Of a DNA stretch of 38,537 nucleotides, positions 3,745-26,112 are shown piece after piece. The position numbers were made by a program, and so were the translations under genes. Below the pieces are notes generated by a model that worked only from the letters and a program-made list of their open reading frames with translations, was not told where the DNA came from and did no database searches. Origin of the DNA: an uncultured Lachnospiraceae bacterium (GTDB taxonomy: Bacteria; Bacillota; Clostridia; Lachnospirales; Lachnospiraceae); the NCBI GenBank assembly GCA_948470755.1, contig CAOKPU010000029.1, positions 1-38,537 on the forward strand. The letters run 5' to 3'. Every line of letters begins with the position of its first letter. Within the stretch, counting starts at the first letter, position 1.

Positions 3745-3755
3745 CCTTAGCCCTC

Positions 3756-5261: not shown

Positions 5262-5317
5262 CTCCATCTCCTCCTTCTTACTTCTCCGGAATACTGCTAT
5301 TTCCTGCTCTTTGCTTT

Positions 5318-5347
5318 ATTATATCTTTGACGTCAGCGCACGGACAA
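5318..5347 (-). promoter_or_regulatory. SigA-type promoter of the rhamnose transporter operon
   Basis: On the minus strand, TTGTCC (5347-5342), an 18-bp spacer and a perfect TATAAT (5323-5318) lie about 55 bp before rhaT. The spacer contains the palindrome TGACGTCA. Farther upstream there is AATAAGGA, also found beside the rhaB promoter, which could be a shared regulator half-site (weak). Confidence 0.7.
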
Positions 5348-5467
5348 TCGTAATATTTTTGGATTTAGGGTAAATTTGTTTTGTGCGATTCCTTATTGCG
5401 GCCCGGGCTCCCAATATCTTCCAAATAAAGATACAGGCAAGCTTCTTAACGTCCAAAACCATACATA

Positions 5468-5500
5468 GAAATCCGGCAGCGGTTCCCGCTGCCGGATTTC
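5468..5500 (-). terminator. 15-bp perfect hairpin downstream of rhaA
   Basis: Arms at 5468-5482 and 5486-5500 are perfectly complementary with a 3-nt loop. The minus-strand tail is only moderately U-rich, so it may be a transcript-stabilising or weak terminating hairpin between rhaBA and the transporter operon. It directly abuts the repeat unit at 5500-5566. Confidence 0.55.
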
Positions 5501-5566
5501 TGTTGAACCCTAGGACTTCTTAGCGAAACAGCCCTTGCTGTTTCGCTTTAGAAGCCCTTCTCACAC
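5500..5566 (-). repeat. 67-nt hairpin repeat unit, copy A (touches rhaA stop)
   Basis: Read on the minus strand this unit is identical to 11604-11670 (plus strand) at 57 of 67 positions. It contains a perfect 10-bp stem (GCGAAACAGC / GCTGTTTCGC, 4-nt loop) inside an outer GGGCTTCT / AGAAGTCC stem. It begins at the base right after the rhaA stop codon. Several differences from the other copy keep the pairing (G.U versus A-U, G-C versus G.U). Confidence 0.75.
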
Positions 5567-6820: not shown

Positions 6821-6840
6821 CTTCTTTTCCTCCTACTTTT

Positions 6841-8244
6841 CTATGCTTGATATTCTTTTACTCCAAAAGAATCAAAAATACATTTTCTCGCTTCCTGCAG
6901 GCCGCTCAGTTCCCCTGCCTCCATCATCTGTACCGCCAGGTTCCCTATCGCCGTCGCTTCTCCCGGCCCGGCGTACACTATGCGTCCGCTCTTTACTGCG
7001 GTCAGTTCGTTTAAATAGGCCGCATTGGAGCCGCCCCCAACGATATTGACTGCCCGGTATTTTTTCCCCGTCAGTTTTTCCACATCCGCAAAAGCCTTAG
7101 CATAACATTCCGCAAGGCTCTGATAAACTACGGTTGCCAGTTGCCCCAACGTCTTTGGTATTTCCTGTCCCGTCCGTTCACAATAAGACTGGATTTCTTT
7201 CGTCATATTGGCAGGCGCCAGAAAACAATCGTCATTTACATCCACCCGGGAAGGGAACCCTTTTTCTTCCTCCGCCTGGCTGCAGATTTCCGCAAAAGAA
7301 TAAGCATCATCAAATTCATGCCTTACCGACTGTATCATCCAAAGGCCCATAATATTTTTCAAATAACGGAAACGATAGTCAAAACCGCCTTCATTTGTAA
7401 AGTTCTTTTCCATGCTTTCCTTTGTGCAGATCGGCTCTTTTATCTCCGTTCCAAGCAAAGACCATGTGCCGGAACTGATGTAAAGGCTTTCTTCCTCCAG
7501 GGAAGGCACAGCCAGCACGGCGGAAGCCGTGTCATGAGAAGCGATCTGCATTACCTTGCACTGATATCCTACTTCCTTAGCGACCTCTTCTTTCAGATCC
7601 CCTACCACCGTCCCGGGCATGGAAAGCGGCCGGAAGATTTTTTTCGGAAAACCAAGGATATCCATCAATTCCCAGTCCCAGTCATTGGTCTTCACATTGA
7701 CCAACTGCCCTGTCGTCGCATTGGTATATTCGCTCTTCTTTATCCCTGTCAGCACAAAATTAAAATAATCCGGCATCATCAGCAGGCTGTCCGCCCGTTC
7801 CAGTGTCTCCGGCTCCTGCACTTTAGCCGCCATCAACTGGTAAACGGTATTAAATATCTGCTTTTGGATCCCATTCCTTTCATAGAGCTGATCCAGCGGG
7901 ATGAAACGGTACACTTCCTCATCCATCCCTTTCGTCCGGCCATCCCTATAACCGTATGTATTGGCCGCAATCTTATCATCCTTATCCAACAGCACATAAT
8001 CCACGCCCCAGGTATCTATGCCCATGGTAACGGGGATCTTGCCCGCCTCCCTGCACTTTCTCATACCGGCTATGATCTCCTTTGCAAGATGATCCACATC
8101 CCATTGGAGATGACCGTCTTTTTTTGCCATCCCGTTCTCAAAACGATAGACTTCTTCGATGACTATTTTGCCGCCTTGTATGCTGCCCAAAATATGCCTG
8201 CCGCTGGAAGCCCCGATGTCCACCGCCAAAAAATATTCTCCCAT
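6841..8244 (-). CDS. rhaB: L-rhamnulokinase
   Basis: Phosphorylates L-rhamnulose with ATP to L-rhamnulose 1-phosphate. FGGY-type sugar kinase of 467 residues, with the N-terminal phosphate loop AVDIGASSGRHI, a DTWGVDYVLLD segment, and the C-terminal NIVGGGSNAAYLNELTA typical of FGGY kinases. An upstream ATG at 8295 would add 17 residues with no matching ribosome site. ATG 8244 is preferred because AAGGAG lies 8 nt upstream and MGEYFLAVDIG is the normal kinase N-terminus. It is the first gene of the rhaBA operon, divergent from the AraC-type regulator. The aldolase that would act next is not in the window. Confidence 0.95.
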   Translation of the reverse strand: MGEYFLAVDIGASSGRHILGSIQGGKIVIEEVYRFENGMAKKDGHLQWDVDHLAKEIIAGMRKCREAGKIPVTMGIDTWGVDYVLLDKDDKIAANTYGYRDGRTKGMDEEVYRFIPLDQLYERNGIQKQIFNTVYQLMAAKVQEPETLERADSLLMMPDYFNFVLTGIKKSEYTNATTGQLVNVKTNDWDWELMDILGFPKKIFRPLSMPGTVVGDLKEEVAKEVGYQCKVMQIASHDTASAVLAVPSLEEESLYISSGTWSLLGTEIKEPICTKESMEKNFTNEGGFDYRFRYLKNIMGLWMIQSVRHEFDDAYSFAEICSQAEEEKGFPSRVDVNDDCFLAPANMTKEIQSYCERTGQEIPKTLGQLATVVYQSLAECYAKAFADVEKLTGKKYRAVNIVGGGSNAAYLNELTAVKSGRIVYAGPGEATAIGNLAVQMMEAGELSGLQEARKCIFDSFGVKEYQA

Positions 8245-8312
8245 ATCCTTCTCCTTCCCATCCGTCCGTAAAACAGTTTCCCATTGTTTTGCCACTCGAT
8301 TCCCATGGCCTT

Positions 8313-8342
8313 ATTGTATCTCTTTTACAAGGATATTGTAAG
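8313..8342 (-). promoter_or_regulatory. Promoter of rhaBA
   Basis: On the minus strand there is a TACAAT -10 (8318-8313) with either TTACAA at 17 bp or CTTACA at 18 bp as -35. The -35 element overlaps the left arm of the inverted repeat at 8339-8371, as expected for a regulator-dependent promoter. Confidence 0.6.
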
Positions 8343-8371
8343 GACGGTGTTTGCTTAATTTTCCGTCCTTA
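8339..8371. promoter_or_regulatory. Inverted repeat between rhaB and the AraC regulator, likely operator
   Basis: TAAGGACGG (8339-8347) and CCGTCCTTA (8363-8371) are perfect 9-bp arms separated by 15 bp. The left arm overlaps the rhaB -35 and the right arm ends 1 bp before the regulator's -35. A related CCGTCCGTA (8262-8270) lies in the rhaB leader. Binding by the adjacent AraC-type protein is inferred. Confidence 0.55.
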
Positions 8372-8372
8372 T

Positions 8373-8401
8373 TTGCCTCATCCGGCTTTTTATGCTACAC
8401 T
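8373..8401 (+). promoter_or_regulatory. Promoter of the AraC-type regulator
   Basis: TTGCCT (8373-8378), a 17-bp spacer and TACACT (8396-8401) lie about 43 bp before the start codon of the regulator. Confidence 0.6.
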
Positions 8402-8443
8402 AAGGAAAAGAAAAGGAAATCAGCGCAGATCAGGGGAGGGACT

Positions 8444-9424
8444 ATGATTGAATCAAATCTTTTGCAACATTTAAAAATCGTTTCCGAAGAGGAAAAATTA
8501 CTTCTTGAAGGGGAAAAAAACGTCCAGAAAAGTTTATATACGAATGAACCTGATTTCGTGGTGGACAGCCGTAAGATGCTGGCCTGGGGAAAACTGATCG
8601 ATATACGTCCGCATACCCGGTTTGTGCATTTTCCCGCCCATAAACATAATTATATTGAAATGATTTACATGTGCAGCGGCTCCACCACCCATATCATCAA
8701 CGGTTCCTCTTCCCTTACGCTGCATACCGGCGAACTGCTGCTGTTAAATCCAAACACCTCTCATGAGATCCTTCCTGCCGGCATGGATGACATCGCCGTG
8801 AATTTTATCATCCTTCCTGAATTCTTCGACCGCGTCCTTATCATGCTGGAAGAAAAGAACGCGCTAAGGGATTTCCTTATCGGGACATTAAGACCGGAAA
8901 AAAACGTGGCCGATTACTTGCATTTCCAATCCATCGATATCCTCCCGGTACAAAACCTGATAGAAAACCTGATCTGGTCTTTGCTGAACAGCCAGCCTAA
9001 CCGCCGGGGGATCAATCAGACGACTATGGGGCTCTTATTCCTTCACCTTTTAAATCATACGGACAGGATCAATGTAAACGATTCCTCCCAATATGGACAG
9101 CATCTTGTTTTTACTGTTTTGCAATACATCGAAACCAATTACCGTACGGCGGAACTGACAGAGATTTCCGGCCGGCTCCGTATGCCCGCCTACGCGGTCA
9201 GCAAGACTTTAAAAAAATATTCCGGCCATACCTTTAAACAGCTTTTGCAGACAAAAAGGCTCAACCAGGCCGCCTTCCTGCTCTCCACCACCGCCCTTCC
9301 GGTCGAAGACATTATTGCTCTGACAGGCTATGACAATACCAGTTATTTCCATCGCATCTTTAAAGAATATTATCATCTGACGCCTAGGGCCTACCGCATA
9401 AAAAACGCCAAGACCGCATTTTAA
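8444..9424 (+). CDS. AraC-family transcriptional regulator of rhamnose genes
   Basis: The product has 326 residues. The N-terminal half (about 50-150) has a cupin-like sugar-binding pattern (FPAHKHNYIEMIYMCSG, HTGELLLLNPNTSHEI). The C-terminal 100 residues form a double helix-turn-helix ending in the AraC signature GYDNTSYFHRIFKEYYHLTPRAYR. An in-frame start at 8351 overlaps the promoter. ATG 8444 has GGGGAGGG just upstream and is chosen. It is divergent from rhaBA across a perfect inverted repeat. I infer that it activates rhaBA, and perhaps the transporter operon, in response to rhamnose. The symbol rhaR would be a guess and is left out. Confidence 0.88.
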   Translation: MIESNLLQHLKIVSEEEKLLLEGEKNVQKSLYTNEPDFVVDSRKMLAWGKLIDIRPHTRFVHFPAHKHNYIEMIYMCSGSTTHIINGSSSLTLHTGELLLLNPNTSHEILPAGMDDIAVNFIILPEFFDRVLIMLEEKNALRDFLIGTLRPEKNVADYLHFQSIDILPVQNLIENLIWSLLNSQPNRRGINQTTMGLLFLHLLNHTDRINVNDSSQYGQHLVFTVLQYIETNYRTAELTEISGRLRMPAYAVSKTLKKYSGHTFKQLLQTKRLNQAAFLLSTTALPVEDIIALTGYDNTSYFHRIFKEYYHLTPRAYRIKNAKTAF

Positions 9425-13465: not shown

Positions 13466-13855
13466 CTATTCCGTTATCCTTTTATCCGTTTCCAAGATAT
13501 GCTCCACCAGCCAGTCCGTCACAAATTTAAGAAGGTCCTGGATCGCCTGATCCTGGTTATCATCAATCACTTCCAGATCCATGGCTTCTAATTTACGTTT
13601 GAAATTATCATGCTGCACTTTCTGGGTAAACATCCTTTTATACTGGATGCTTTCCATATAAGCTTCCTCATGGTCAAAATGCATCTCCGTATAATCTTTC
13701 AGCCTTTGAATAAGCGCTGCAATATTATCGTATTTATCCGGCACAAATTCATTAATGCATAGCTGATAGATTTCATCCGCTATCTCGAACAATACCCTAT
13801 GTTCATTATCAATTGATTCAATACCTACCAAATATTCATCCTTCAATTCGTACAT
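13466..13855 (-). CDS. Bacteriohemerythrin (variant iron site)
   Basis: Cytoplasmic four-helix di-iron protein of 129 residues that usually binds oxygen or senses oxygen or nitric oxide. Ligands visible are H19 (DNEHR), H59 and E63 (HFDHEE), H82 (QHDNF), and H119 with D124 (HILETD). The usual HxxxH of the third helix reads Q78-K-V-Q-H82, so one of the five canonical histidines is glutamine. H62 is an extra histidine next to the site. It is monocistronic, with GGTGG before the ATG and an extended -10 promoter. It is convergent with the exchanger gene, which ends 24 bp away. Confidence 0.9.
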   Translation of the reverse strand: MYELKDEYLVGIESIDNEHRVLFEIADEIYQLCINEFVPDKYDNIAALIQRLKDYTEMHFDHEEAYMESIQYKRMFTQKVQHDNFKRKLEAMDLEVIDDNQDQAIQDLLKFVTDWLVEHILETDKRITE

Positions 13856-13993: not shown

Positions 13994-15625
13994 TCATTTT
14001 GCAATCTGTAAATATTCGCCGCTTATCCGAATGACGGCGTTATTTTCCACCGCTTTATCACTGTCTATGATAATCTGCTCATCTTTGGAGACAGATCCGT
14101 CTTCCAGGGCTGCATAATCATCATTCTGATCCAGGACTTTCACATAACGCATCTCCACATATCGTTCCGTTCCAAGGATGCCTTCCCGCTCTACCGCTAA
14201 ATAGACATAACAACGTCCTCCCGTCCCCTCCCGATGCAGGGCGTCTATAGGGACACAGCACTCATAGCTGTCCGAAGATCCATATTTGACAAATGTACCG
14301 CTCATCCCCAGCGAACCTTCCCCCAAAGGCAGATAGACTACCGCCCGGTAGACGCCGGATCCGTCTTCCTCCAGATAATCAATTTGCAGCTCCTTTTTTC
14401 CTTCCGGCGTACTCAACGTAACCGCATCCCCCTGATTCACGTATTTTTTCTGTTCCTTGGTGATCAACGCTTCAAACTGATAAGGGACTTCTTTATCCGC
14501 GCAGACTATCGCCGCACCGTCTGCCGTCCGCTCTCCTACCGTCAGATTGATTTTCGTAACCGTCCCCTCCATATTGCTGGCCACTTTCCCATCTTCCTTA
14601 TATATTTTACGGTATTTTTCTATTTCCTTTTTCAACTTATCCAGTTCCATCCGGTATATTTCCAATGTACTGTCCGCACGGCCAGGCGTCTTTGCATCTT
14701 CCAGCCTCCTGCCCGCATCCCTTAAACTATCCGCGTTCCCTGCCAAAGCGTCTTCCCTTCCATATCCGGCGTCCTCTGCCGCTTTCTCCAATGCCTTTAT
14801 TTCACTTTCCCAGGCTTTCTTTGCATTATCTTCCGCTGTAAAATCCGGCTCTTCTTTGGGATTAGCTTTATAATTTTCATAACCGGCCTGAGCCAAAGCC
14901 AGCCGTTCTTTCGCCTCTTTGAGCGCTTCCTTTGCTTTTTCTATCTCCTCTTTGCTGCCTTCTTCCTGTAGCGCTTCCAGATTCTTTTCCATTTCCGTTA
15001 CGCTGGCCTGATTCCCCGACACGGTAGACGCCATCCGCTTCCCTTCTTCCACCCATTCCTGATAAGCCTGACGGGCTTTCTCCCTGTCCGCATCCGAAGT
15101 CACGGATACCCCGTTTCCCTTCCTTTCATCCAGATCTTCCCCCGCCTGCTGCAAAGCCTTATCCGCCCGCCCTAAGGCTGTTTCCGCTTTATCCTGGGCC
15201 GTTTCCATGTCCTCGTCCGCACGGCGGATCCCTTTTTGACGTTCCAATTCATCCAATGTACGGTTATCCATAAGATCCCCTATCTGATATTCCAGTTTTG
15301 CCGCTTCCAGCTTCTTTTCCTCAATCACATCTTCCAAATCATCCTGATCCAGCCAAAACAATTCACTCCCCTCTTCCACATCATCTCCCGTACGTACACA
15401 TATCTTTTCCACCCGTACCCCCGGCAAGGTATGAATGGCCACGTCGCCACCCTGTCTGATGATCCCGTCCGTTTCCACAACATGCTCTATCCGTCTCTTT
15501 TCCACATTCCCCACCGTTACACGGGGAAGCTTGGAAACGTATATGCTTTTGGAAATTAAAGTGCATACCCACATAAAAATAAAAAAAGCAATAAGCGCCG
15601 CCGCTATTTTTTCCCTCTTTTTCAT
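13994..15625 (-). CDS. HlyD/MacA-like membrane fusion (adaptor) protein
   Basis: Membrane-anchored adaptor of 543 residues. One transmembrane helix spans residues 7-27. The first half of a lipoyl-like domain (about 55-95) includes GVRVEKICVRTGDDVEEG. A long charged coiled coil runs from about 95 to 335, and the second lipoyl half (about 345-375) contains MEGTVTKINLTVGERTADG. Beta-barrel and membrane-proximal domains follow. A longer in-frame reading from 15826 overlaps the preceding permease and is rejected. The start ATG overlaps the permease stop (ATGA), so the two are translationally coupled. Such adaptors normally work with an exporter, but none is in the operon. It is the last gene of the six-gene unit; no clear terminator follows. 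Confidence 0.85.
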   Translation of the reverse strand: MKKREKIAAALIAFFIFMWVCTLISKSIYVSKLPRVTVGNVEKRRIEHVVETDGIIRQGGDVAIHTLPGVRVEKICVRTGDDVEEGSELFWLDQDDLEDVIEEKKLEAAKLEYQIGDLMDNRTLDELERQKGIRRADEDMETAQDKAETALGRADKALQQAGEDLDERKGNGVSVTSDADREKARQAYQEWVEEGKRMASTVSGNQASVTEMEKNLEALQEEGSKEEIEKAKEALKEAKERLALAQAGYENYKANPKEEPDFTAEDNAKKAWESEIKALEKAAEDAGYGREDALAGNADSLRDAGRRLEDAKTPGRADSTLEIYRMELDKLKKEIEKYRKIYKEDGKVASNMEGTVTKINLTVGERTADGAAIVCADKEVPYQFEALITKEQKKYVNQGDAVTLSTPEGKKELQIDYLEEDGSGVYRAVVYLPLGEGSLGMSGTFVKYGSSDSYECCVPIDALHREGTGGRCYVYLAVEREGILGTERYVEMRYVKVLDQNDDYAALEDGSVSKDEQIIIDSDKAVENNAVIRISGEYLQIAK

Positions 15626-16518
15626 CCTTTTAACCCCGCATAAACAATTCCCTGTTCCAAATAATCCTGTCCCATCAAAAATACAAATACAGGCGGTATG
15701 AGCGTGATCACCGAAGCTGCAAAAGCATATCCCGCCTGTTCCCATGTGATCTCCGGCAAGTACAGCGATAAAGGCCAAAGCCGCTTGCTCTCTAAAAAAG
15801 CAAGAGGCTGTTCCATCAAATTCCAATATTCCAAAAACCCCAGCGTCATTGCCGAAAGGATCCCTCCTTTTCCCAAGGGCAGCCCAATCTTATAAAAGAT
15901 CAGCAATTCTCCTGCCCCGTCTATCCTCGCCGACTCCAGTACGGCCCCTGGTATCTGCCGGAACCCTCCATAGCAGATAAATACCGGAAAGGTGGAAAAT
16001 ACTGCCGGCAATATCACCGCCCACTGTGTATCCATAAGCCCCAACCTATCCAAAACCAAATAATTGGACAGCATCATCACCTGAAAAGGCATAAGCATTA
16101 AAACGACATACAACGTAAATACCGCTTTGTCAAAACGGAACCGGTATACGGCAAAAGCCCACGCCGCCGGCATTCCCACCAGACACTGTCCCGCCAGTAT
16201 GCATCCGGTCATTTTTACGGAATTCCAGAACAGGACAAAAAACTGCGGCATCTCAAACAAAAGCCTTTTATAATTCTCAAAAGTAGGATAATCCGGCATC
16301 AGGTTCCATTGGATATAACCCCCCATCCCTGTAAATACCGGGCTTAACCCTTCCCGCAGTTCATCCCTGCCCATAAACGCCCCTGTTATTAACAGCACTA
16401 TGGGGATGCATACCATCACTACGGGACAGATCAATATGGTTTCCAACAAATATCTTTTCGCCGTATTTAGCCCCGATTTTATTTTTTTCCTTTTTGCCAA
16501 CTCCCATGATCCTTTCAT
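15622..16518 (-). CDS. ABC transporter permease, MalG-like (CUT1 family)
   Basis: Inner membrane permease of 298 residues with about six hydrophobic helices. The ATPase-contact loop is seen as LESARIDGAGELLIFYKIGLP, matching the EAA-type motif, and the C-terminus ends in YAGLKG, as usual for MalG-like proteins. It overlaps both neighbours by 4 bp, the preceding permease and the following HlyD-like gene. It should form a heterodimeric channel with the product of 16515-17372. The substrate is unknown; the family carries oligosaccharides and related solutes. No ATPase gene accompanies it. Confidence 0.9.
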   Translation of the reverse strand: MKGSWELAKRKKIKSGLNTAKRYLLETILICPVVMVCIPIVLLITGAFMGRDELREGLSPVFTGMGGYIQWNLMPDYPTFENYKRLLFEMPQFFVLFWNSVKMTGCILAGQCLVGMPAAWAFAVYRFRFDKAVFTLYVVLMLMPFQVMMLSNYLVLDRLGLMDTQWAVILPAVFSTFPVFICYGGFRQIPGAVLESARIDGAGELLIFYKIGLPLGKGGILSAMTLGFLEYWNLMEQPLAFLESKRLWPLSLYLPEITWEQAGYAFAASVITLIPPVFVFLMGQDYLEQGIVYAGLKG

Positions 16519-17372
16519 CCATCCGTCCCCTTATCCCATAATCCCTGCAGCAGCATAATAAAAGCCAAAAAAAACAAACCACAGGCTACCGCCGCCGCCG
16601 CCATTTTATCCAGATCCAAATTTACAAACCAGTTGTTAAACAAATGCTGCAGCATATAGATGCTTTCATGGGGATATGCCCCTGCCGCCAAATAAGCTTC
16701 CCTATAAATCTTAAAAGAATTTAAAAAGGATATGACCACAATAATATACAGGCTTCCCTTCAAATCAGGCAGCAGTACATACCAGAATCTTTGTAGGCCG
16801 CCCGCCCCATCCACCTTTGCCGCCTCCATGACATCGCCGTTTACCCCCATAATCCCCGCCAGCCACAGGACGACGGTAAACCCAAGGTTCTTCCATAAAT
16901 AAGTCCCGGCCAGCACATAAAACGCCGCCCCTGACCCTATATAATCCACCGTTTCCATCCCCATTCCAAAATGAGTACAAAACCGTTCCAAATATTTATT
17001 CAAAAAACCCCTCTCATAAAAGACCATTTTCCACACTACTGCAACGGCTGCCGTAGGCATGGCAAGCGGAAACAGATAAAGCGATTTCACTGCCTGCATA
17101 TGCCTTATGCTTCCCATCGCCAAAGCAATTGCCAGCCCCAGCATTACCAACAGCGGAATACAGACGAGGGCGAAACGGAGCGTATTTTTCACAGCCAGCA
17201 AAAAGGCGCTGTTCGTAAATATGATCCGGTAGTTGTGCATCCCCGCCCCCTCTTTTGTAATTGCAGTCATAAAGGATCTCTTTACTACATCCATGAACGG
17301 AAGCAGTACAAAAATCAGCGTCCCCAGAAAACTGGGAGCAAGAAAAATGAATCCGGCTTTACCTTTTCTCAT
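16515..17372 (-). CDS. ABC transporter permease, MalF-like (CUT1 family)
   Basis: Membrane permease of 285 residues. It opens with a hydrophobic helix (AGFIFLAPSFLGTLIFVLLP) as in sugar permeases of the UgpA/MalF group and carries the EAA loop MEAAKVDGAGGLQRFWYVLLP. The reading frame also allows GTG at 17375; both starts fit the GGGAGGAGGG ribosome site. It follows the second large lipoprotein by about 30 bp and overlaps the next permease by 4 bp. It is presumably energised by a shared MsmK/MsmX-type ATPase encoded elsewhere. Confidence 0.9.
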   Translation of the reverse strand: MRKGKAGFIFLAPSFLGTLIFVLLPFMDVVKRSFMTAITKEGAGMHNYRIIFTNSAFLLAVKNTLRFALVCIPLLVMLGLAIALAMGSIRHMQAVKSLYLFPLAMPTAAVAVVWKMVFYERGFLNKYLERFCTHFGMGMETVDYIGSGAAFYVLAGTYLWKNLGFTVVLWLAGIMGVNGDVMEAAKVDGAGGLQRFWYVLLPDLKGSLYIIVVISFLNSFKIYREAYLAAGAYPHESIYMLQHLFNNWFVNLDLDKMAAAAVACGLFFLAFIMLLQGLWDKGTDG

Positions 17373-17406
17373 CACACATCACCCTCCTCCCTCGCCTTTT
17401 CCGCTC

Positions 17407-19830
17407 CTATTCCGACATATAGATGGACGTTTTTAAGATCACTTCCTCTGCTGCAGCCGAAGCGTCCATTTCCCCGGCAAGCGCCTTTACTCCTGCAAGA
17501 TAGACGGCGTTTTCCAGGACGGTATCCTTTATATAAGGCGTGGATCCTTCGGCAGCTATCTCCAACAGCTTTGTGATTTCCTCATCGGAAGCAGGATAAA
17601 TATCCAAAGCTAAATAACTTTTTCCGTCCGCCGATTCCGTACCCATGGATCCATAACTGCCGCCATCCTCTGTGGCATTTAAGAGAAACCTCTCCCTGCA
17701 CTTTTCTTTATTTACCGGCATCCCGTTCCAGCCGCCATCATCCAGGATATCTTCTAACAATTCCAAAGCAATTTCCGGATAGCTGCAGGATGCGCTGATT
17801 CCCACCAGCCCGTCCGGCAGAAAGACATTTTTCGCCTGCCCGTTATAGGAAGCAAACACGCTGTCCGTTTTCCCTTTAATCTTAAAACAGGAAATCATTA
17901 CATCGAAATCAAAACTGCTTCCAATCGTTCCGGCAACAAATTTCTGCCGGCCGGACAAATATTCTATCATCCTGCTCCCTGCTGAAAATTGATATTCCCT
18001 GATTCCTTCCTCTGTAATCCCTGACGCCGCCATATCCTCTAGCCAACGTTCATAGCTTTCCTTCTGCTCTTCACCAACCCCCTCCTTTTCCACGTCCCAC
18101 ATCCTTTTTGCCAGCTTGTAGAATTCTTCCAAAGCCGCCTGATCCGGCTTCCCTTCCTCATCCTTCCATGCCGGCGCGCATACCGGCAGCAGCAGGCTTA
18201 ACATTTCTTCTTCGCTTCTGGCTCCAAACAGCAGCCCTTCCCCGCCTTCCTTCCGATAGTCTTCCATCGTCCGGGCTATCGATTCCAGATCAGCCATATT
18301 TTCTATTTCATCCTGTCCCCCTACTAAAAGAGCCATCCGGAACTGCCCCGGCACTGCGTAAGTCCCCTCCGGCGTCCAAAACGCATGGATAATATTCGTA
18401 AAATATTGATCCTCTTTCTTATCCTCCAGATAAGGGGATAGATCCATCAGGACTCCTTTTTCCTTATAGGAACCTATCGGCATATCATCCAGGATAAAAA
18501 GATCCGGGCCTTTTCCGGCGGCAATTTCCGTATTCAGCTTTTTCAATGCATCTTCCCTTGTTGCCGCCAGGCTTTCATCCATGCCGATTTCATATTGGAT
18601 ATAAACTTCCGGGTGATTTGCCTGATAAGCGGAAATAACCGTTTTTAACTGCCCATTTTCCTTCAGGCTGTATGCTTTCAGGCGGATATCCGGTACAGCC
18701 GGGATATCAGGATCGTAAATATAACGCATGATTTCACCGGAAGAATATACCAGTAAAAAAACATCCTCCTCTAAAAAAATCCCATCCGCCAGTCCATAAG
18801 AAGGGTTTCCCAACGAGGTGAGCGACCCGTCCACCACCTGTTCCATTACATTGCCGCCAATCACATGCCGATAAATACCTTTATCCAAAGCCAGATAAAT
18901 AACCCCGTCTTTGCCCGGCAAAAGCAGCAAAGGCTTCGTTCCTGCTATGTTGGACTCTATATTTTCCCCAAACTGTTCCTTAAGGAAATCATCCAATACC
19001 GTATCTTCTATTGTTTCCCCGGACGAAAGGTTCACAATCGTCACCCCGCCGGCGCTTACCAGCATTAGTTTTCCGTCCTTTTCCGTCATATAGGAAACCT
19101 GCCGGGAAAGATCGGCCACTTCTTTCGTTTTTCCTGTTTTCCTATCTATCTCATAAACCCTGCCGTCCAAAGCGGATCCAAATAATCTCCCGTCCTCTGA
19201 AAACGCCAGATGATTGATATACTCGCCATCTTTATAAGAAATCTCCAGTTCCGTCCACGTCCCATCCGGGGCAATGACCGCATATTGAAGATGAAGGGAA
19301 AAATCTTTCATATGTAGGTCAATTCCCTCCTGGCCGTCCCCATCCTCTACATCGCCGTCTTCCGCTTCGGATCCTGCATCCGTTTCAACTCCTGTTTCAT
19401 AAATAACCGCCATCTGCCCATCCTTTGCCGCTGCCATATCCAGGAACCATGCGCCTTCCCTCTTTCGTTCCTCCAACCAGGCCAGTTCTTCCTCCTCCCA
19501 TGTAACCCCGTTATCGAACGACAGCCATTTCCCGGCATTTCTGGACATTACGGCCAGGCTTCCGTCCTCCATCCGGGCAATCCTGGTTTCCACATGCAGC
19601 TCTTCTTTCAACACATCGTCTTCTTCCTCCAGATAGCGTCCCATCGCCTTTCCGTCATCTTCCGATCCTCCGGGCAATCCGTCTTCCTTCATCCAAGACC
19701 CGTTTCCAGCCATGCCGCCGTCTTCTCCCGTGCTGCTCCCCTCCTGCCCGCATCCTGCCATACTCCCTATTCCCGCCAACAGGCAAAACGCCGCAAACCA
19801 AGCCGCTAATCTTTTTAATCTTGTTCTCAT
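17407..19830 (-). CDS. Large lipoprotein: Asp-box/propeller-like domain fused to ABC solute-binding domain (paralog 2)
   Basis: The product has 807 residues, exported and lipid-anchored. A signal peptide ends in SMAGC (C27). The N-terminal half (about 60-370) contains an Asp-box SFDNGVTW and repeated strand-turn segments such as EDGRLFGSALDGRVYEIDRKTG and DGVIYLALDKGIYRHV, resembling a beta-propeller. The C-terminal half (about 380-807) looks like an extracellular solute-binding protein of the CUT1 type (LKTVISAYQANHPEVYIQYEI, AAGKGPDLFILDDMP, GVLMDLSPYL). ATG 19839 is only 1 nt from GGAGG, so ATG 19830 is chosen. It lies 22 bp after the stop of its paralog. The ligand is unknown. The fused length is about twice that of a normal binding protein. 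Confidence 0.82.
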   Translation of the reverse strand: MRTRLKRLAAWFAAFCLLAGIGSMAGCGQEGSSTGEDGGMAGNGSWMKEDGLPGGSEDDGKAMGRYLEEEDDVLKEELHVETRIARMEDGSLAVMSRNAGKWLSFDNGVTWEEEELAWLEERKREGAWFLDMAAAKDGQMAVIYETGVETDAGSEAEDGDVEDGDGQEGIDLHMKDFSLHLQYAVIAPDGTWTELEISYKDGEYINHLAFSEDGRLFGSALDGRVYEIDRKTGKTKEVADLSRQVSYMTEKDGKLMLVSAGGVTIVNLSSGETIEDTVLDDFLKEQFGENIESNIAGTKPLLLLPGKDGVIYLALDKGIYRHVIGGNVMEQVVDGSLTSLGNPSYGLADGIFLEEDVFLLVYSSGEIMRYIYDPDIPAVPDIRLKAYSLKENGQLKTVISAYQANHPEVYIQYEIGMDESLAATREDALKKLNTEIAAGKGPDLFILDDMPIGSYKEKGVLMDLSPYLEDKKEDQYFTNIIHAFWTPEGTYAVPGQFRMALLVGGQDEIENMADLESIARTMEDYRKEGGEGLLFGARSEEEMLSLLLPVCAPAWKDEEGKPDQAALEEFYKLAKRMWDVEKEGVGEEQKESYERWLEDMAASGITEEGIREYQFSAGSRMIEYLSGRQKFVAGTIGSSFDFDVMISCFKIKGKTDSVFASYNGQAKNVFLPDGLVGISASCSYPEIALELLEDILDDGGWNGMPVNKEKCRERFLLNATEDGGSYGSMGTESADGKSYLALDIYPASDEEITKLLEIAAEGSTPYIKDTVLENAVYLAGVKALAGEMDASAAAEEVILKTSIYMSE

Positions 19831-19852
19831 TTGCCCCATGCCTCCTTCCTCT

Positions 19853-22243
19853 TTACTCCGCCATATAAATCGACGTCTTTTGCATTACCTCTTCCGCGCC
19901 GGATGAGGGGCTTATCTCCCCGCGCATGACCTTGCCGCCAATTTCATATACGGCATCTTCCAGTACCGGATCCCGTACATAAGGGATCCGGCTTTCCTTC
20001 ACTATCCTCATCAACCGTTCCACATCCGCTTCCGAAGCTGCATAAAGATCCAGAGCATATATTTTACTGCCATCCGCGTCGCTTGCTCCCATGGAGCAAT
20101 AACTGCTGCCATCCCCTTGATCGTTTTTACGGAAATTCTCCCTATACTTTTCCTTATTCACCGGCATACCGTCAAGAGCATCATCGTCCAGCATCTTTTC
20201 CATCAATTCGACAGCCTCTTCCTTCTGCACGCAAGTATTGCTGATCCCTATTAAATTCCTCGGCATAAACACTCCGCCGGACTGGCCGTTATAAGCCGCA
20301 AAGCTTTTGTCCGCCCATTCCTCCATCTTCAGGAAGGAAGTAATTATATCGAACCCACTGCTATGTTGCAGCAGCCCTGCCGCAAATGCTATTTCCCCTC
20401 TGGAATACTCTATCATTTTTCCACTTACCGATAGCAGGATCTCCCTCATCCTGCCGCTTTCAATCCCGGAAACCCGCATATCCGTCAGGAATTGCTTATA
20501 ATCTTCCCTGGCATCTTCATCCAAGCCGGCCTCTTCCGCATCCCATATCCTCTTTGCCAGCGTATAGAACTTTACCAACTCATTCTTATTTATTTTTCCT
20601 TCTTTATCCTTCCACGAAGGCGCGCAGACAGGCATTAGCAGATTCAACAGCTCATCTTCATTCCTCGCTCCAAGGATCAATCCTTCCGCTTTCTCTTCCC
20701 GGTATTGCTCTACGATCCCGGCCATTGCTTCCAAGTCAGTCATCTTCTCTATATCCTCCTTCCTTCCGACCACAAGGGCGGCCTGGAACTGGGAAGGCAC
20801 AGCATAAATCCCTTCCGATCCTTTAAAAGCATGCAACACATTAGAAAAGTATTGATCTTCTGCCTTATCCTGCAAATAAGGGGTCAAATCCGCCAATACC
20901 CCCTTTTCCTTATAAGAATCGATAGGCATATCGTCCAGAATGAAAAAATCCGGCCCTTTCCCTGCGGCAATTTCCGTATTCAGTTTCTTTAACGCATCTT
21001 CCCTTGTCAGGGCAAAGTTATCCTCCATACCTATTTCATACCGGATATAAGCCTCCGGATGCTCCGACTGATATTGGCTGATCACCGCCTTTAACTGTGC
21101 GCTTTCCCGTAAGCTGTATGCTGTAAGCTGTATCTTTGGCACCGCAGGCATATCCGGATCATATGTATAACGCAGGATCTCCCCCGAAGAAAAAAGAATC
21201 AAAAACTCATCATTTTCCAAAAGGATCCCGTCCGATATCCCATAAGAAGGATTGCTTAAGGAAGTAAGCGCCCCGTCCGCCACTTGTTCCATTACGTTGC
21301 CTCCGATCACATGCCGGTATATCCCTTTATCAAAAGCAACGTATACGACCCCTCCGCTGCCTGGCATAACTAAAAGCGGACGGACTCCTTCCGTATTGTA
21401 ATCAATACGGCCTCCAAACTGATCTTGCAGGAATTCATCCAATACTTTATCTTCCGTCACTTCCCCGCCGGACAGATCCACAACCGTTATTCCTTTTGCA
21501 TGTACCAACAGCAGGTTGCCATCCTTTTCCACCATATAATTCGGTGCGCCGGGAAGTTCCGCCACCTCTTTCACGGCTCCGGTCGATTTATCCATTTCAT
21601 ACACTTTGCCGCCCAAAGCCGAACCAAACAACCTGCCGTCTCCTGCAAATGCCAAAAAATTAATATATTCCCCGCTCTTATAAGGAACATCCAATTGTGT
21701 GAATACTCCGTCCGGCGAAACAAAACCGTATTGGGGATGGAAATCCTGAACGTTTTCCTGTCCGCCATCCTCTTCTCCGCTTTCGGGGTTTCCGGCATAG
21801 ATCAAGGCAGCGCTGCCATCCTCCGCCACCGCAATTTCCATGATCCAGGCGCCGTCAACCTTCAATTTCTCAAACCAGGCCATTTTTTCCTTTTCCCATG
21901 TAATGCCGTTATCTGCCGATACCCATTTTCCTGACCGGGCAGACATAATCACCAGGCTACCGTCTTCCATTTTTGCGATTTTGCTTCCGGCATTCAGCTC
22001 TTCCTTCAGGGAGTCATCCACTTTTTCCAGATAACGCCCCATCGCCTTTTCCCCCTCTGCCAGTCCCTCTTGCTGCAGATTTTCCGCTGATCCCTTATTT
22101 TCCTCATCATTCCTGCCTTCCGGCCCTCCGGCCGCCTCCCCGCTATCGTTTTCCGCCCGTCCGCAGGAAACCATACAAGCCGAACCAAATACCATGGCCA
22201 ATAACAGCATCCATCCTATGATCCTTTTCCCTTTTCTTTTCAT
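19853..22243 (-). CDS. Large lipoprotein: Asp-box/propeller-like domain fused to ABC solute-binding domain (paralog 1)
   Basis: The product has 796 residues with the same layout as the next gene: a signal peptide ending in MVSC (C27), an acidic/Gly-rich linker, a propeller-like region (about 65-365) with an Asp-box SADNGITW at 109-116, and a solute-binding domain from about 370. Long stretches are shared with the paralog, such as IYRHVIGGNVMEQV, TREDALKKLNTEIAAGKGPD and GMPVNKEK, so the pair arose by tandem duplication. An in-frame extension to 22366 reaches into the preceding gene and lacks a signal peptide, so ATG 22243 is chosen. It lies 71 bp after the small lipoprotein gene. Confidence 0.82.
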   Translation of the reverse strand: MKRKGKRIIGWMLLLAMVFGSACMVSCGRAENDSGEAAGGPEGRNDEENKGSAENLQQEGLAEGEKAMGRYLEKVDDSLKEELNAGSKIAKMEDGSLVIMSARSGKWVSADNGITWEKEKMAWFEKLKVDGAWIMEIAVAEDGSAALIYAGNPESGEEDGGQENVQDFHPQYGFVSPDGVFTQLDVPYKSGEYINFLAFAGDGRLFGSALGGKVYEMDKSTGAVKEVAELPGAPNYMVEKDGNLLLVHAKGITVVDLSGGEVTEDKVLDEFLQDQFGGRIDYNTEGVRPLLVMPGSGGVVYVAFDKGIYRHVIGGNVMEQVADGALTSLSNPSYGISDGILLENDEFLILFSSGEILRYTYDPDMPAVPKIQLTAYSLRESAQLKAVISQYQSEHPEAYIRYEIGMEDNFALTREDALKKLNTEIAAGKGPDFFILDDMPIDSYKEKGVLADLTPYLQDKAEDQYFSNVLHAFKGSEGIYAVPSQFQAALVVGRKEDIEKMTDLEAMAGIVEQYREEKAEGLILGARNEDELLNLLMPVCAPSWKDKEGKINKNELVKFYTLAKRIWDAEEAGLDEDAREDYKQFLTDMRVSGIESGRMREILLSVSGKMIEYSRGEIAFAAGLLQHSSGFDIITSFLKMEEWADKSFAAYNGQSGGVFMPRNLIGISNTCVQKEEAVELMEKMLDDDALDGMPVNKEKYRENFRKNDQGDGSSYCSMGASDADGSKIYALDLYAASEADVERLMRIVKESRIPYVRDPVLEDAVYEIGGKVMRGEISPSSGAEEVMQKTSIYMAE

Positions 22244-22314
22244 TATTCCCTTTCCTCTCCTGATCTTAAATACATAACCAAAGCCGAAACCTTCTGCCGC
22301 CGGGCATATCCTTT

Positions 22315-22911
22315 TTATCCGTTGAACGCCAGAATGAAAACAGAAATTGTATCCGCCCGGAAACAATCCCCCTCCCAGCTTCCGGTTAAAGTCACATTGC
22401 TGCCTTCTTCCAGTTCCTCTATGCTGCCAACCCTTTCCGTACTTGTCATACCGTCCGTCGATATCCTTACTGTCACTTTTACATCATTGCTGTAATTGAC
22501 CGTAATCAAATTTTCTTCTTCGCCTTCCAATGGCATTACCGCAATCAATTCATCATTTTCCATTGTTCCCGTATAAATCTGGGAAATTACAAAACTGCCG
22601 TCAGCGATGTCCCTGACCTCCCCTTCTACCGTTTTTATTCCTTCCCCTGTCACATCATCCCATACCACCATGCTGCCCGCATCCTGATCCTCCTCTTTGG
22701 ATTCCATCCCTACCTTCTCCTCCATGGCATCTTCCAAAGCCTTTTCCTCCCTCTCCTCTTTTCCATTTCCTATTTCTTCCTCCATGGCATCTTCTAAGAA
22801 AGTATCCTCCATATGGCCGCTCATGTCCTTTTCATCCCCGCAACCGCCCATTATCGTAAAGCCGGCCGCTATCATTACCGCTAATATCTTATATCTATAC
22901 TTTCTCTTCAT
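22315..22911 (-). CDS. Small acidic lipoprotein with possible OB-like C-terminal domain
   Basis: The product has 198 residues and I do not recognise a named family. A signal peptide ends in IMGGC (C24). Residues about 28-80 are very acidic with a duplicated LEDAMEE segment. The C-terminal 110 residues (VEGEVRDIADGSFVISQ to the end) form a beta-rich pattern of the kind seen in small OB-like lipoprotein domains. GGAGG lies 6 nt before the ATG. It is the first gene of the six-gene unit and faces the two-component operator, so it may be the sensor-linked or most highly expressed component. The function is unknown. Confidence 0.8.
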   Translation of the reverse strand: MKRKYRYKILAVMIAAGFTIMGGCGDEKDMSGHMEDTFLEDAMEEEIGNGKEEREEKALEDAMEEKVGMESKEEDQDAGSMVVWDDVTGEGIKTVEGEVRDIADGSFVISQIYTGTMENDELIAVMPLEGEEENLITVNYSNDVKVTVRISTDGMTSTERVGSIEELEEGSNVTLTGSWEGDCFRADTISVFILAFNG

Positions 22912-23095
22912 CGCAATCCTCCATTCTCGCTTAACCCTTAGCTCAGGATGCGGTCGCGATATTCACAAAGTGAACAAACCCGCCGCATCAACCGCTCTCC
23001 TCCGTTTGCCCGTAAAGCAATGCGTACCGATACGGATCCTGTCGTCCGGACAGAAACAGGAACATTGCTTTATGACATTAGACTATCACCCTAAT

Positions 23096-23144
23096 CTCTA
23101 AACAGCCTCTAAAACGATGAAAAATTTTTAGAGCATTTTTAGAG
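23096..23144. promoter_or_regulatory. Paired operator sites for the two-component regulator
   Basis: CTCTAAA occurs at 23096-23102 and 23107-23113, and its complement TTTAGAG at 23127-23133 and 23138-23144. Each pair is a direct repeat with 11-bp spacing, as bound by OmpR-type dimers, and the two pairs are mirror images 13 bp apart. Each pair sits about 10 bp from a -10 position: TATAAT (23155-23160) for the regulator and a weak TAGTCT (23085-23080) for the lipoprotein operon. The rest of 22912-23095 shows no gene. Confidence 0.7.
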
Positions 23145-23154
23145 ATTTATTTGT

Positions 23155-23160
23155 TATAAT
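23155..23160 (+). promoter_or_regulatory. -10 element of the two-component system promoter
   Basis: A perfect TATAAT, 37 bp before the start codon. No consensus -35 is present. The TTTAGAG pair occupies that place, suggesting activation by the bound regulator. Confidence 0.65.
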
Positions 23161-23197
23161 AAATCTGATACGAGAAGATAAAAGGAAGGAAGAGTGT

Positions 23198-23914
23198 ATG
23201 CGGCTGCTGCTTATTGAAGATGACAAAAAACTAAATCAATCCTTAAAATATCAGTTGGAAAAAGAGAACTTTATCGTTGACGCTTGCTTTGACGGCGAAG
23301 AAGCTCTTTTTTATATCGACCAGGGAATCTACGATGTCGTACTGCTGGACCGTATGCTTCCTCTCTTGGACGGTACCGGCCTTCTAAATCTGATGCGCCG
23401 GAAAAATAATGCCACTCCCGTTATATTAATTACCGCTTTAGGCACATTAAACGATAAAATCACCGGCCTGGATTCAGGAGCCGACGATTATCTCGTAAAA
23501 CCTTTTGAATTTGAAGAACTTCTTGCCCGCATCCGCTGCGTGACCCGTCGTTCCCCCCTCATACACGGAAACGACGTCCTTTCCTTTGGGGATTTGACAT
23601 TGAATATGGGGGAAAGCCTCTTAACCGGTCCGGAAGGTTCCTGCAGCCTTTCCAAAAAAGAAAACGAACTTTTTCAGGCCTTTTTCCGCAACCCGGGACA
23701 AACCCTTACAAGGGAACAGCTCCTGGCCAAGGTATGGGGCCTGGATGCCGATATAGAAAACGGCAATCTGGATAATTACATCCACTTTCTCCGCCGCCGG
23801 CTGCTGGCTGTAGGCAGCCATACCATCCTGCGTACGGTACGCGGTATCGGCTATTGCCTCCGGGCGTCAAAACCGGGCTCCTGCATCAACCCCACCGACA
23901 GGATGCCGCGCTGA
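23198..23914 (+). CDS. OmpR-family response regulator
   Basis: The product has 238 residues. The receiver domain (1-115) has the acidic pocket EDD at 7-9, phospho-acceptor D51 (VVLLDRMLP), the ITA segment and the KPF lysine near 101. The winged-helix DNA-binding domain (about 125-230) has LSKKENELFQAFFRNPGQTLTREQL and the final TVRGIGYCL hairpin. It is followed 51 bp later by its histidine kinase and is divergent from the lipoprotein-permease-HlyD operon. The paired TTTAGAG sites in between are the likely targets, giving autoregulation and control of that operon. Confidence 0.93.
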   Translation: MRLLLIEDDKKLNQSLKYQLEKENFIVDACFDGEEALFYIDQGIYDVVLLDRMLPLLDGTGLLNLMRRKNNATPVILITALGTLNDKITGLDSGADDYLVKPFEFEELLARIRCVTRRSPLIHGNDVLSFGDLTLNMGESLLTGPEGSCSLSKKENELFQAFFRNPGQTLTREQLLAKVWGLDADIENGNLDNYIHFLRRRLLAVGSHTILRTVRGIGYCLRASKPGSCINPTDRMPR

Positions 23915-23965
23915 TTCCCGGCTTAACCTTAACTTAACCACCCTCCCGCAGCAGAAAGGCAGATT

Positions 23966-25318
23966 ATGTTCCGAAAAGTCCATCACCGGCTGACACTTTT
24001 ATGTACCGGCATTACTACAACGATATTGCTTATCATGTCCTTGATTTACCTCTACGTTTCCGAATCAGGCCTTACCAATAGCCAGTTCCTGTCCTTTCAA
24101 CATGCCATGGATAATTTTATCGGCAATCTGGGACAGCAAAGCATCCTCACCCATGAATGGCTTTACCGCATGGAAAACAGCAACTCTTACCTGATCCACA
24201 TTACGGATAACGGAGTCCCCCTGCTTTTTAATGAAAGAAACGATGATAAGCCGCGTCAACGCGTAACGGAAGAAGCCTTGTCCTATTTCCATTCCTCCTT
24301 TGACGCGGATACGCTTTCTTCTTCCGGAACCACCGGCTCTCATTTTGAATTTCCTTTTACCGACTCCTGCGGGGAAGATTACTATGCATGTTTTGCCAGC
24401 ATCCGTCAAGGAAAGCAGAATACCGAAATCCTCGTCCTCTGTCCCCTACAGGAGCTTAATGCCAAGATCCGCCGCCAACGCGTCCATTTTGCCCTTATCG
24501 ACCTTGGGGCCATCCTATTGCTTGCCCTGTTTTCCTTCTTCTTTACAAAAAAACTTCTTGCTCCTATCGAACAAAACCGGAAAGAGCAGATTCAATTTGT
24601 GGCTGCCGCCTCCCATGAGCTGCGCACCCCTCTTTCCGTCATCCTTTCCTGTGTTTCTGCCATAAAAAAAGCCTCTCCTGAAGAAGAAGAGAACTTTTTA
24701 TCCGCCATACATTCCGAGGGGCAAAGAATGTCGCACCTGATCAGCGATATGCTGCTTCTTACCCAAACCGACTCGCATGCCTTCCCCATCCGCCTCCAGC
24801 CTACGGAATGCGATACCCTGCTCCTTAATTCCTACGAAGCATTTGAACCCATAGCCAGGGAAAAAGGCATTGCATTTAACGTCTCCCTGCCGGAACAATC
24901 CATGCCCCCCTGCCTCTGCGACGGGGAACGTTTTAACCAGATTACCGCTATTTTACTGCACAATGCCATAAGCTATACTCCTAATGGCGGGACTGTCCTT
25001 CTTTCTTTATCTTTGGATACTGCCAAAAGACCGGAAAACCTTATCCTGTCCGTCAGCGACAACGGCGTCGGCGTCCCCGACGAAGAAAAGAAAAAGATCT
25101 TCCAACGCTTTTACCGCTCCGACCAAGCCCGCAGCATCAAAGACCACTTCGGGCTTGGCCTATCTATTGCGAAAGAAATCATCCACTCTCTGGGAGGAAG
25201 CATCCGGGTAACGGATACCCCCGGCGGCGGAGCCACTTTTATCGTCCGCCTCCCTTACCAAAGAAATTGCCCTGGCTCCCTTAAAAATTATCCGTCCGGC
25301 TTCCTGTCGGCGCGGTAA
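23966..25318 (+). CDS. Membrane sensor histidine kinase
   Basis: The product has 450 residues. Two membrane helices (about 9-30 and 175-194) flank an extracytoplasmic domain of about 145 residues. The H-box AAASHELRTPLSVILS places the phosphorylated histidine at H217. The ATPase domain shows the N-box LLHNAISYTPNGG, G1 box SDNGVGVPDEE, and G2 box HFGLGLSIAKEI. There is no HAMP domain of usual length; helix 2 leads almost directly to the H-box region. AAAGG lies 6 nt before the ATG. It pairs with the response regulator. The signal is unknown, but the operon it faces suggests an extracellular solute or an envelope stress. Confidence 0.92.
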   Translation: MFRKVHHRLTLLCTGITTTILLIMSLIYLYVSESGLTNSQFLSFQHAMDNFIGNLGQQSILTHEWLYRMENSNSYLIHITDNGVPLLFNERNDDKPRQRVTEEALSYFHSSFDADTLSSSGTTGSHFEFPFTDSCGEDYYACFASIRQGKQNTEILVLCPLQELNAKIRRQRVHFALIDLGAILLLALFSFFFTKKLLAPIEQNRKEQIQFVAAASHELRTPLSVILSCVSAIKKASPEEEENFLSAIHSEGQRMSHLISDMLLLTQTDSHAFPIRLQPTECDTLLLNSYEAFEPIAREKGIAFNVSLPEQSMPPCLCDGERFNQITAILLHNAISYTPNGGTVLLSLSLDTAKRPENLILSVSDNGVGVPDEEKKKIFQRFYRSDQARSIKDHFGLGLSIAKEIIHSLGGSIRVTDTPGGGATFIVRLPYQRNCPGSLKNYPSGFLSAR

Positions 25319-25332
25319 TCCCATTTTGCCGG

Positions 25333-26112
25333 TTATCCTAAAGCTACATCCATTACCATCATAATCACAAATCCAATGGCAAAACCCACTGTCCCCATAT
25401 TGGAATGCTCTCCTTCCGCCGATTCCGGGATCAGTTCTTCCACCACCACATATAGCATGGCGCCCGCTGCAAAGGCAAGGGTATATGGGATATACGGGGT
25501 GATCTGCTCGGCTAAAAGCAGCGTAAGGAACGCCGCCACCGGTTCTACCGCCCCGGACAATACCCCTAACGCAAAAGCCTTCCCTTTTCCGGCCTCTTCC
25601 TTTAAAGGAAGGGATATGATCGCCCCTTCCGGGAAATTCTGGATGGCAATGCCTATCGACAGGGCGATCGCCCCGGCCATGGTAATCGGGCTGCCTCCCG
25701 CCATCGCCCCGGCCAATACGATCCCCACGGAAGCCCCTTCCGGTATATTATGGATGGTGACTGCCAGTATCATCATCGTCGATTTTTTCCAACTGCTTTT
25801 CAACCCTTCCTGCTTCCCTCCATCCAGATGCAGATGGGGAACGATCCTGTCAAGCAGAAGCAAAAATGCAACCCCCAGCAAAAACCCAACTGCGGCCGGG
25901 ACAAACGCCAGCTTTCCCATTGGCTCCGATAAATCCATGGCCGGAATCAGCAGCGACCAGACGGAAGCCGCCACCATCACTCCCGCCGCAAAACCAAGCA
26001 TCGCTTTTTGCACTGTGGCGTTTAATTCCTTCCGCAGCAAAAACACACACATCGCTCCCAATGTCGTTCCTAAAAAAGGGATCCCTATTCCAATCCAAAC
26101 GCTTCCATTCAT
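25333..26112 (-). CDS. ZIP-family metal transporter (GufA-like)
   Basis: The product has 259 residues and about eight membrane helices. The paired metal-binding motifs HNIPEGAS (121-128) and QNFPEGAI (158-165) are characteristic of ZIP transporters, which move Zn2+ and other divalent metals into the cytoplasm. A short His/Asp loop (PHLHLDGG, about 92-99) lies between helices 3 and 4, where the variable metal loop is expected. The start ATG overlaps the stop of the preceding gene (ATGA), so the two are translationally coupled. It is convergent with the histidine kinase gene. Confidence 0.9.
   Translation of the reverse strand: MNGSVWIGIGIPFLGTTLGAMCVFLLRKELNATVQKAMLGFAAGVMVAASVWSLLIPAMDLSEPMGKLAFVPAAVGFLLGVAFLLLLDRIVPHLHLDGGKQEGLKSSWKKSTMMILAVTIHNIPEGASVGIVLAGAMAGGSPITMAGAIALSIGIAIQNFPEGAIISLPLKEEAGKGKAFALGVLSGAVEPVAAFLTLLLAEQITPYIPYTLAFAAGAMLYVVVEELIPESAEGEHSNMGTVGFAIGFVIMMVMDVALG

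Follow-up and report, generated by a model that had tools for sequence, protein, structure and literature searches.

Why should the permeases of a sugar-type importer share an operon with a MacA/HlyD-like adaptor? The question is raised by a stretch of 38,537 nucleotides (nt) from an uncultured Lachnospiraceae bacterium (contig CAOKPU010000029.1, assembly GCA_948470755.1), which is called the window here. A first-pass annotation of this DNA had described a six-gene operon, encoding lipoproteins, two CUT1 permeases and the adaptor, that faces an OmpR-type two-component system, and all eight genes were confirmed. We find that permease and adaptor are kept together in other genomes and that the operon and its regulator genes carry a common, conserved promoter code. 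The features are as follows.

13994..15625, minus strand: MacA/HlyD-like adaptor, with an N-terminal transmembrane (TM) helix, lipoyl and barrel halves and a hairpin; the C-terminal part aligns to the end of the RND_mfp model
15622..16518, minus strand: PermG, MalG/UgpE-like CUT1 permease with an EAA loop, read from the translation
16515..17375, minus strand: PermF, GlcT/UgpA-like CUT1 permease with an EAA loop, read from the translation
17407..19839, minus strand: SBPb, solute-binding protein (SBP) and lipoprotein, a predicted propeller (residues ~66-380) fused to a family-1 binding domain (385-810)
19853..22252, minus strand: SBPa, paralogue of SBPb (56% identity)
22315..22911, minus strand: sLip, small lipoprotein-like product of the operon's first gene, of no significant family
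23080..23112, minus strand: operator and extended -10 of the operon promoter, TTAGAGG-N4-TTAGAGA-N6-TGATAGTCT
23128..23160, plus strand: operator and extended -10 of the regulator promoter, TTAGAGC-N4-TTAGAGA-N6-TGTTATAAT
23198..23914, plus strand: OmpR/PhoB-type response regulator
23966..25318, plus strand: sensor histidine kinase with two predicted TM helices and ~147 residues in between

The operon is tightly packed. The coordinates leave 62 nt between sLip and SBPa, 13 nt between SBPa and SBPb and 31 nt between SBPb and PermF, followed by 4-nt overlaps of PermF with PermG and of PermG with the adaptor gene. The start of the latter is best read as an inner ATG, giving a protein of 543 amino acids (aa); a longer TTG-start frame would overlap the permease. 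The regulator and kinase genes (23198-25318) are divergent and separated from the operon by 286 nt.

The same gene order was sought in other genomes, as the first-pass annotation had proposed. An earlier contig search with one protein as query gave no match. A PermG profile search of genome contigs returned 562 matches, the best 80 of which form our named loci; by title these are mostly Lachnospiraceae and include Kineothrix alysoides, Parablautia muri, Parablautia intestinalis, Eisenbergiella tayi and E. porci. An adaptor gene follows PermG in all 80. Among 40 loci from genomes of the family that were chosen by SBP similarity, 30 contain a cassette-type PermG, and an adaptor accompanies it in 29. 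The lone adaptor-less locus is cut by a contig end. These counts leave out L074 and L075, duplicates of the window and of C36, the second cassette of the window's genome (32 thus becoming 30, 31 becoming 29 and, for the c0 gene described below, 25 becoming 24). Median gaps, calculated from longest frames, are 12 nt for SBP-PermF, 9 nt for PermF-PermG and 15 nt for PermG-adaptor. Within the window's genome, the adaptor has one relative besides itself at E ≤1e-3, located in the C36 cassette, and no adaptor was found near the 16 ordinary CUT1 PermG rows.

A check of 20 genomes gave the same picture from both sides. All 27 PermG matches of at least 240 bits adjoin an adaptor: 25 lie next to an adaptor match, and the remaining two, both in genome G173 and at first taken as adaptor-less, were then seen to have short adaptors of 231 and 240 aa. 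Conversely, adaptor matches of at least 60 bits adjoin such a permease in 24 of 24 cases, and six weaker matches (41-59 bits) are located away from such permeases. Adaptor genes standing routinely apart from the permeases, named by the first-pass annotation as evidence that would speak against an integrated system, were thus not seen among the matches of at least 60 bits. Apparent losses of the adaptor in L129 and L150 turned out to be artefacts of open reading frame picking. On a PermG tree of 140 rows the adaptor label requires a single change, with a support of 100, against 19 changes for shuffled labels; the tree was built quickly and has long branches, 138 of its rows are distinct (L072/L184 and L034/L114 are taken as repeats), and most PermG permeases found later lie outside it. 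The 80 of 80 loci, the one-change tree and the 20-genome check together reject a chance neighbourhood, and the operator described below likewise speaks against chance. Judged from sequence, the pairing of importer and adaptor is a lineage trait, and the two kinds of component, supposed earlier to occur together only rarely, do so as a rule within this permease clade. The fusion lipoproteins are less strictly bound to the permeases. Five loci (L040, L042, L057, L064 and L067) have a propeller-SBP and a two-component system and no cassette permeases in the fetched stretch, so that here the separation envisaged by the earlier annotation did occur in part; they come from three genomes (G164, G166 and G179), all with a permease-adaptor cassette at another site.

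We assign the adaptor to the MacA type found in MacAB and YknXYZ systems on a match to RND_mfp (2.6e-13) that lies under the model's curated cut-off. Pfam HlyD_D23 was matched at only 3.4e-4, below its cut-off, and the adaptor profile matched ZneB (3e-10) and MacA (1.4e-4) in the PDB. One TM helix is predicted. The RLS-type motif at the hairpin tip, as in MacAB-TolC, has the spacing R-x6-L-x3-S and is present in none of 48 aligned adaptors; an adaptor search of plasmids gave no match. Short adaptors of 231-253 aa occur beside cassette-type permeases in L235-L236 and L238-L239. They apparently lack the lipoyl-hairpin part and keep the N-terminal hydrophobic segment, and this short form appears to be the invariable remnant of the adaptor. 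In L238 and L239, where PermG-type permeases of 221-222 bits have short adaptors nearby, the SBPs of 498 and 465 aa are too short for the propeller fusion; the permease-adaptor pair therefore exists without a propeller.

In 24 of the 30 family-genome cassettes, the adaptor gene is followed by a gene, c0, for a protein with a MacB_PCD-like extracytoplasmic part, flanking TM helices and no ATPase domain in Pfam. The c0 profile matches the YknZ extracellular domain (5f9q, 3.4e-8), and MacB in the core domain only. Of five members compared with Pfam MacB_PCD, three scored above the cut-off, one below, and one gave no match; a simple hydropathy scan of 23 rows predicted four or five TM helices in 10 and a smaller number in the other 13, which include short frames. 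The gene is also present in cassettes of other Lachnospirales and Clostridia families, one of them ordered SBP-SBP-HlyD-c0-PermF-PermG, and in the second cassette of the window's genome (C36, L184). It is absent from the window, and in the 80 named loci it never follows the adaptor; the weak c0-type matches in L088 and L093 (29 and 33 bits) are not placed behind the cassette's adaptor. At L093:6560-9291, a second, weaker HlyD-type match (85 bits) and then the c0-type match (33 bits) stand just before PermF. The c0 label changes twice on the cassette part of the PermG tree and belongs to deeper-branching cassettes. A MacB-type permease combining the core domain with its own ATPase was not found in the window's operon.

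The permeases themselves are of importer type. Both window proteins, of 286 and 298 aa, match BPD_transp_1 (1.7e-9 and 1e-11) and carry the EAA loop, as the two permeases of a CUT1 importer do. Among NCBIfam models, UgpE fits PermG best and GlcT fits PermF best, with no match reaching its cut-off, and the closest solved relatives of the PermG profile are AlgM2, SugB and MalG. A strict EAA pattern is kept in 30 of 33 PermF and 28 of 31 PermG matches. No ATPase gene, exporter-type or MalK-type, is present within the window's operon. A single gene with OB_MalK, for a MalK-type ATPase, was found elsewhere in the genome and is the putative shared partner of PermF and PermG; the relative cassette L237 has its own MalK-type ATPase gene directly after PermG. 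The conserved EAA loops, the genomic MalK-type ATPase and that of L237 favour an importer engine.

The two lipoproteins, confirmed as paralogues, had been described as twice the normal size. Their lengths (810 and 799 aa) bear this out for the whole polypeptides, and the binding domain itself is of normal size: a predicted propeller of ~315 residues precedes it. Each is thus predicted by the model to be a propeller fused to an oligosaccharide-type binding domain, the nearest relatives of which are oligosaccharide binders, in keeping with the family-1 lipoproteins of CUT1 importers. Aligning the propeller profile to itself did not reveal a significant repeat, so the blade count comes from the model only; the SBP fold search was filled by SBP-domain matches and barely tested the propeller part. 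Propeller-domain matches of at least 90 bits were found in 5 of 146 genomes of the order and 2 of 398 of the phylum, the window's own genome being counted in each. sLip (198 aa) has no significant match in Pfam or NCBIfam. Of the named loci, 65 include at least 9 kb of upstream sequence, and 25 of these contain an sLip relative. Further relatives, at L224:5128-5769 and L221:8210-8752, are preceded by an operator with two mismatches and have no linked cassette within the fetched stretch.

How is the unit controlled? OmpR/PhoB-type operators consist of direct half-sites about one helical turn apart. The divergent promoter of the window contains the paired repeat CTCTAAA-N4-CTCTAAA twice, once per strand, where 0.03 would be expected in the window at ≤1 mismatch, and both promoters follow the consensus TTAGAGA-N4-TTAGAGA-N6-TGNTANNNT. 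Exact 7-mer repeats at period 11 were found in 35 of 51 promoter regions, a few of them low-complexity, compared with 2-9 at other periods. TCTCTAA pairs with ≤2 mismatches occur in 45 of the 51 promoters versus a shuffled mean of 0.44, with shuffles that preserved base composition only and a consensus derived from the same 51 regions first used for counting; the six regions without a site are L035, L056, L050, L057, L176 and L070. The extended -10 (TGNTANNNT) begins exactly 6 nt past the operator at 32 of 36 sites on the regulator side and 32 of 39 on the operon side. A generic sigma-70 and terminator scan gave no more sites than shuffles.

In the window's genome the repeat pair (≤1 mismatch) was found at only these two sites. 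A scan of 200 family genomes gave 26 matches to the full code at ≤1 mismatch, 25 of them at propeller-SBP/cassette loci or at the two-component genes that go with these. Among the fetched loci, which were fetched because they held cassettes or operator matches, the code has 126 matches at ≤1 mismatch, whereas reversing the pattern gives none and changing the spacing 0-1; in the same loci, an operator stands at a cassette gene in 55 of 74 cases with a two-component gene, 19 of 38 with neither regulator and 4 of 12 with Bla hits. Where cassettes are split or interrupted, the PermF-PermG-HlyD-c0 part has an operator of its own (exact in L038, one mismatch in L231), and in L176 the operator is located before HlyD-c0-PermF-PermG; these copies lie outside the 51 regions. 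Either side of the divergent promoter has paired 11-bp direct repeats, which are kept in 45 of 51 such promoters and argue for the two-component control that had been suggested, probably through binding of the response regulator. The idea of an integrated unit likewise gains from the constant adaptor and from the operators on both parts of split cassettes. Small secreted-looking proteins at L219:5251-5814 and L221:3677-4204, the second DUF4367-like below cut-off, have an operator ~50-65 nt upstream, away from a cassette, and are possible further members of the regulon.

We regard an uptake-type, self-regulated ABC machine, with the adaptor as a collar and the lipoproteins as sensors, as the best reading of the locus, one in which belief and doubt are evenly balanced. 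The propeller-SBP lipoproteins would hold a ligand outside the cell and pass it to the MalFG-type permease pair, driven by the shared MalK/MsmX-type ATPase encoded elsewhere. The adaptor may be seated on the outer face of the permease through its TM helix, barrel and membrane-proximal part, forming a collar or chamber that aids capture or gating of a bulky ligand; in deeper-branching cassettes its probable seat would be the ATPase-less MacB-type domain protein, which the window does without. The two-component system would sense ligand or load state, with the SBPs as the most likely route, and switch on both the operon and itself. Distance matrices from 62 complete cassettes, compared with no species-tree control, gave correlations of 0.52 for SBP-kinase given PermF and 0.57 for HlyD-PermF given SBP, and a weak 0.20 for SBP-HlyD given PermF, a pattern that would seat the adaptor on the permease, with the SBP standing between the latter and the kinase. 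A weak lead to the ligand comes from 12 of the 80 named loci (L089, L099, L101, L104, L106, L107, L110, L112, L114, L115, L119 and L134), in which relatives of the L114 glycerophosphodiester phosphodiesterase (assigned by Pfam GDPD) and of a phosphoenolpyruvate (PEP)-utilising enzyme follow the adaptor gene on the same strand at 61-264 nt. Together with UgpE as the best NCBIfam model of PermG, these neighbours make glycerophosphodiesters or wall-polymer fragments candidate ligands.

Several observations weigh against this reading. HlyD-kinase distances are correlated given SBP (0.34, again without a species tree), which blurs the chain. None of the four short adaptors has a Pfam match at 0.01, and their identification comes from our own profile (95, 91, 86 and 37 bits). 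The reversed control pattern matched once in the window's genome, and at ≤2 mismatches in the 200 genomes it matched ~28 times versus 69 real matches; many two-mismatch matches are thus chance, and only those with ≤1 mismatch were used for these genomes. At 19 of the 74 cassettes with a two-component gene, no operator (≤2 mismatches) stands at a cassette gene. A BlaI-BlaR1-type pair directly upstream replaces the two-component system in 7 of the 80 named loci (L103, L122, L125, L142, L144, L146 and L152; Pfam-checked for L146); none of the seven has the two-component operator, and no TACA..TGTA-type BlaI boxes were found upstream of the BlaI and SBP genes in nine loci. In L226-L228, a sister two-component system with an operator variant goes with a small lipoprotein, MacB-type permeases and an ATPase; the genes there encode two MacB/FtsX-type permeases (~406 and 480 aa) and an ABC ATPase (~210 aa), with Pfam run on L228 only. 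Finally, passages of PMC5985334 attribute efflux or protection to the MacA-type systems known from Gram-positive bacteria.

The strongest competitor, which we consider rather unlikely, is envelope defence. Here the cassette would detect a harmful extracellular molecule, such as an antimicrobial peptide or a cell-wall antibiotic, and remove or internalise it in the manner of BceAB-BceRS or YknWXYZ, with the permease pair acting as engine and flux sensor. A regulator resembling a dedicated two-component system, or the BlaI-BlaR1-type pair in its place, would suit such a role, and so would the sister system of L226-L228; however, BlaI/BlaR pairs regulate other things too, the SBP binding domain is nearest to oligosaccharide binders, and PermF and PermG are importer-type proteins without the large extracellular domain of BceB. 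Passages of PMC5985334 describe Gram-positive MacA-type adaptors as protecting against peptides, and BceAB as sensing bacitracin with its kinase.

If the MalFG-like pair and the adaptor had instead been repurposed to move a molecule outward across the wall, the lipoproteins would be outside receptors or chaperones. The adaptor's named relatives are efflux or secretion parts in the passages seen of PMC5985334 and PMC4446572, and the deeper cassettes have a MacB-type domain protein, but the EAA loops and family-1 SBPs (1-4 per named locus where any were found) are importer hallmarks, the operon has no exporter-type ATPase, and the short adaptors kept beside the permease lack the size to form a hairpin tube. 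We find export improbable. Much the same low probability attaches to a machine that only senses, in which an SBP-kinase core is tuned by the permease-adaptor part with no net transport: the five loci with a propeller-SBP and a two-component system and the SBP-kinase correlation given PermF (0.52) speak for it, whereas the three genomes of those loci each hold a cassette elsewhere and the EAA loops are conserved.

Genes around the operon and its regulators include a hemerythrin-domain protein (13466-13855) immediately downstream of the operon and a ZIP-family transporter (25333-26112) immediately beyond the kinase; a ZIP relative is also near the cassette in L046 and L048. At 444-9424, genes for L-rhamnose isomerase, an FGGY kinase, a Peripla_BP_4/BPD_transp_2 ABC importer and an AraC-type regulator form an apparent rhamnose-use cluster neighbouring the operon.

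All parts of the system come from known families. Searches of open-licence PMC papers gave no earlier description of a CUT1 permease pair combined with a MacA-type adaptor, and the pairing, with its own promoter code, suggests an undescribed kind of envelope transporter. Tentatively, and with more doubt than confidence, we propose a new class of ABC transporter in which a MalFG-type importer is joined to a MacA-family adaptor, in fuller form with an engine-less MacB-type core, as a wall-side capture turret read by its own two-component system via propeller-SBP receptors. Periplasmic adaptors are known as exporter parts, and their role in one-membrane bacteria is called open in passages of PMC5985334 and PMC4446572. 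An importer-type permease clade that keeps its adaptor, including natural short versions of 231-253 residues, provides a concrete test object for that role. With a promoter code this rigid, the regulon can be read off the sequence of gut Lachnospiraceae, a group with many uncultured members.

The system can finally be placed beside those it resembles. With CUT1 importers (MalFGK, UgpAEC and MsmEFGK types) it shares two BPD_transp_1 permeases with EAA loops, family-1 lipoprotein SBPs and one MalK/MsmX-type ATPase encoded elsewhere in the genome; unlike them, the window's operon has a MacA-like adaptor and a predicted propeller on each SBP, and relatives add the MacB-type domain protein. With MacAB and YknWXYZ (Type VII ABC systems with an adaptor) it shares the MacA-like adaptor and, in relatives, a c0 protein matching the YknZ extracellular domain, but a MacB/YknY-type ATPase domain is absent, the engine is apparently the MalFG-type permease, and the window is without a MacB-type protein. 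As in BceAB-BceRS, ABC transporter genes adjoin a two-component system that, from the operator conserved in 45 of 51 promoters, apparently controls them. BceB-type permeases have ten TM helices and a large extracellular domain (passages of PMC5985334); here the permeases are BPD_transp_1 proteins of 286 and 298 aa, the kinase has ~147 residues between its TM helices, and an adaptor and SBPs are present. In AztCD, as described in part of PMC6689063, a propeller protein hands zinc to an SBP, so that in both systems a propeller would work with an SBP outside the membrane; there the two are separate proteins and the ligand is zinc, whereas in the window propeller and oligosaccharide-type binding domain are predicted to form a single polypeptide.

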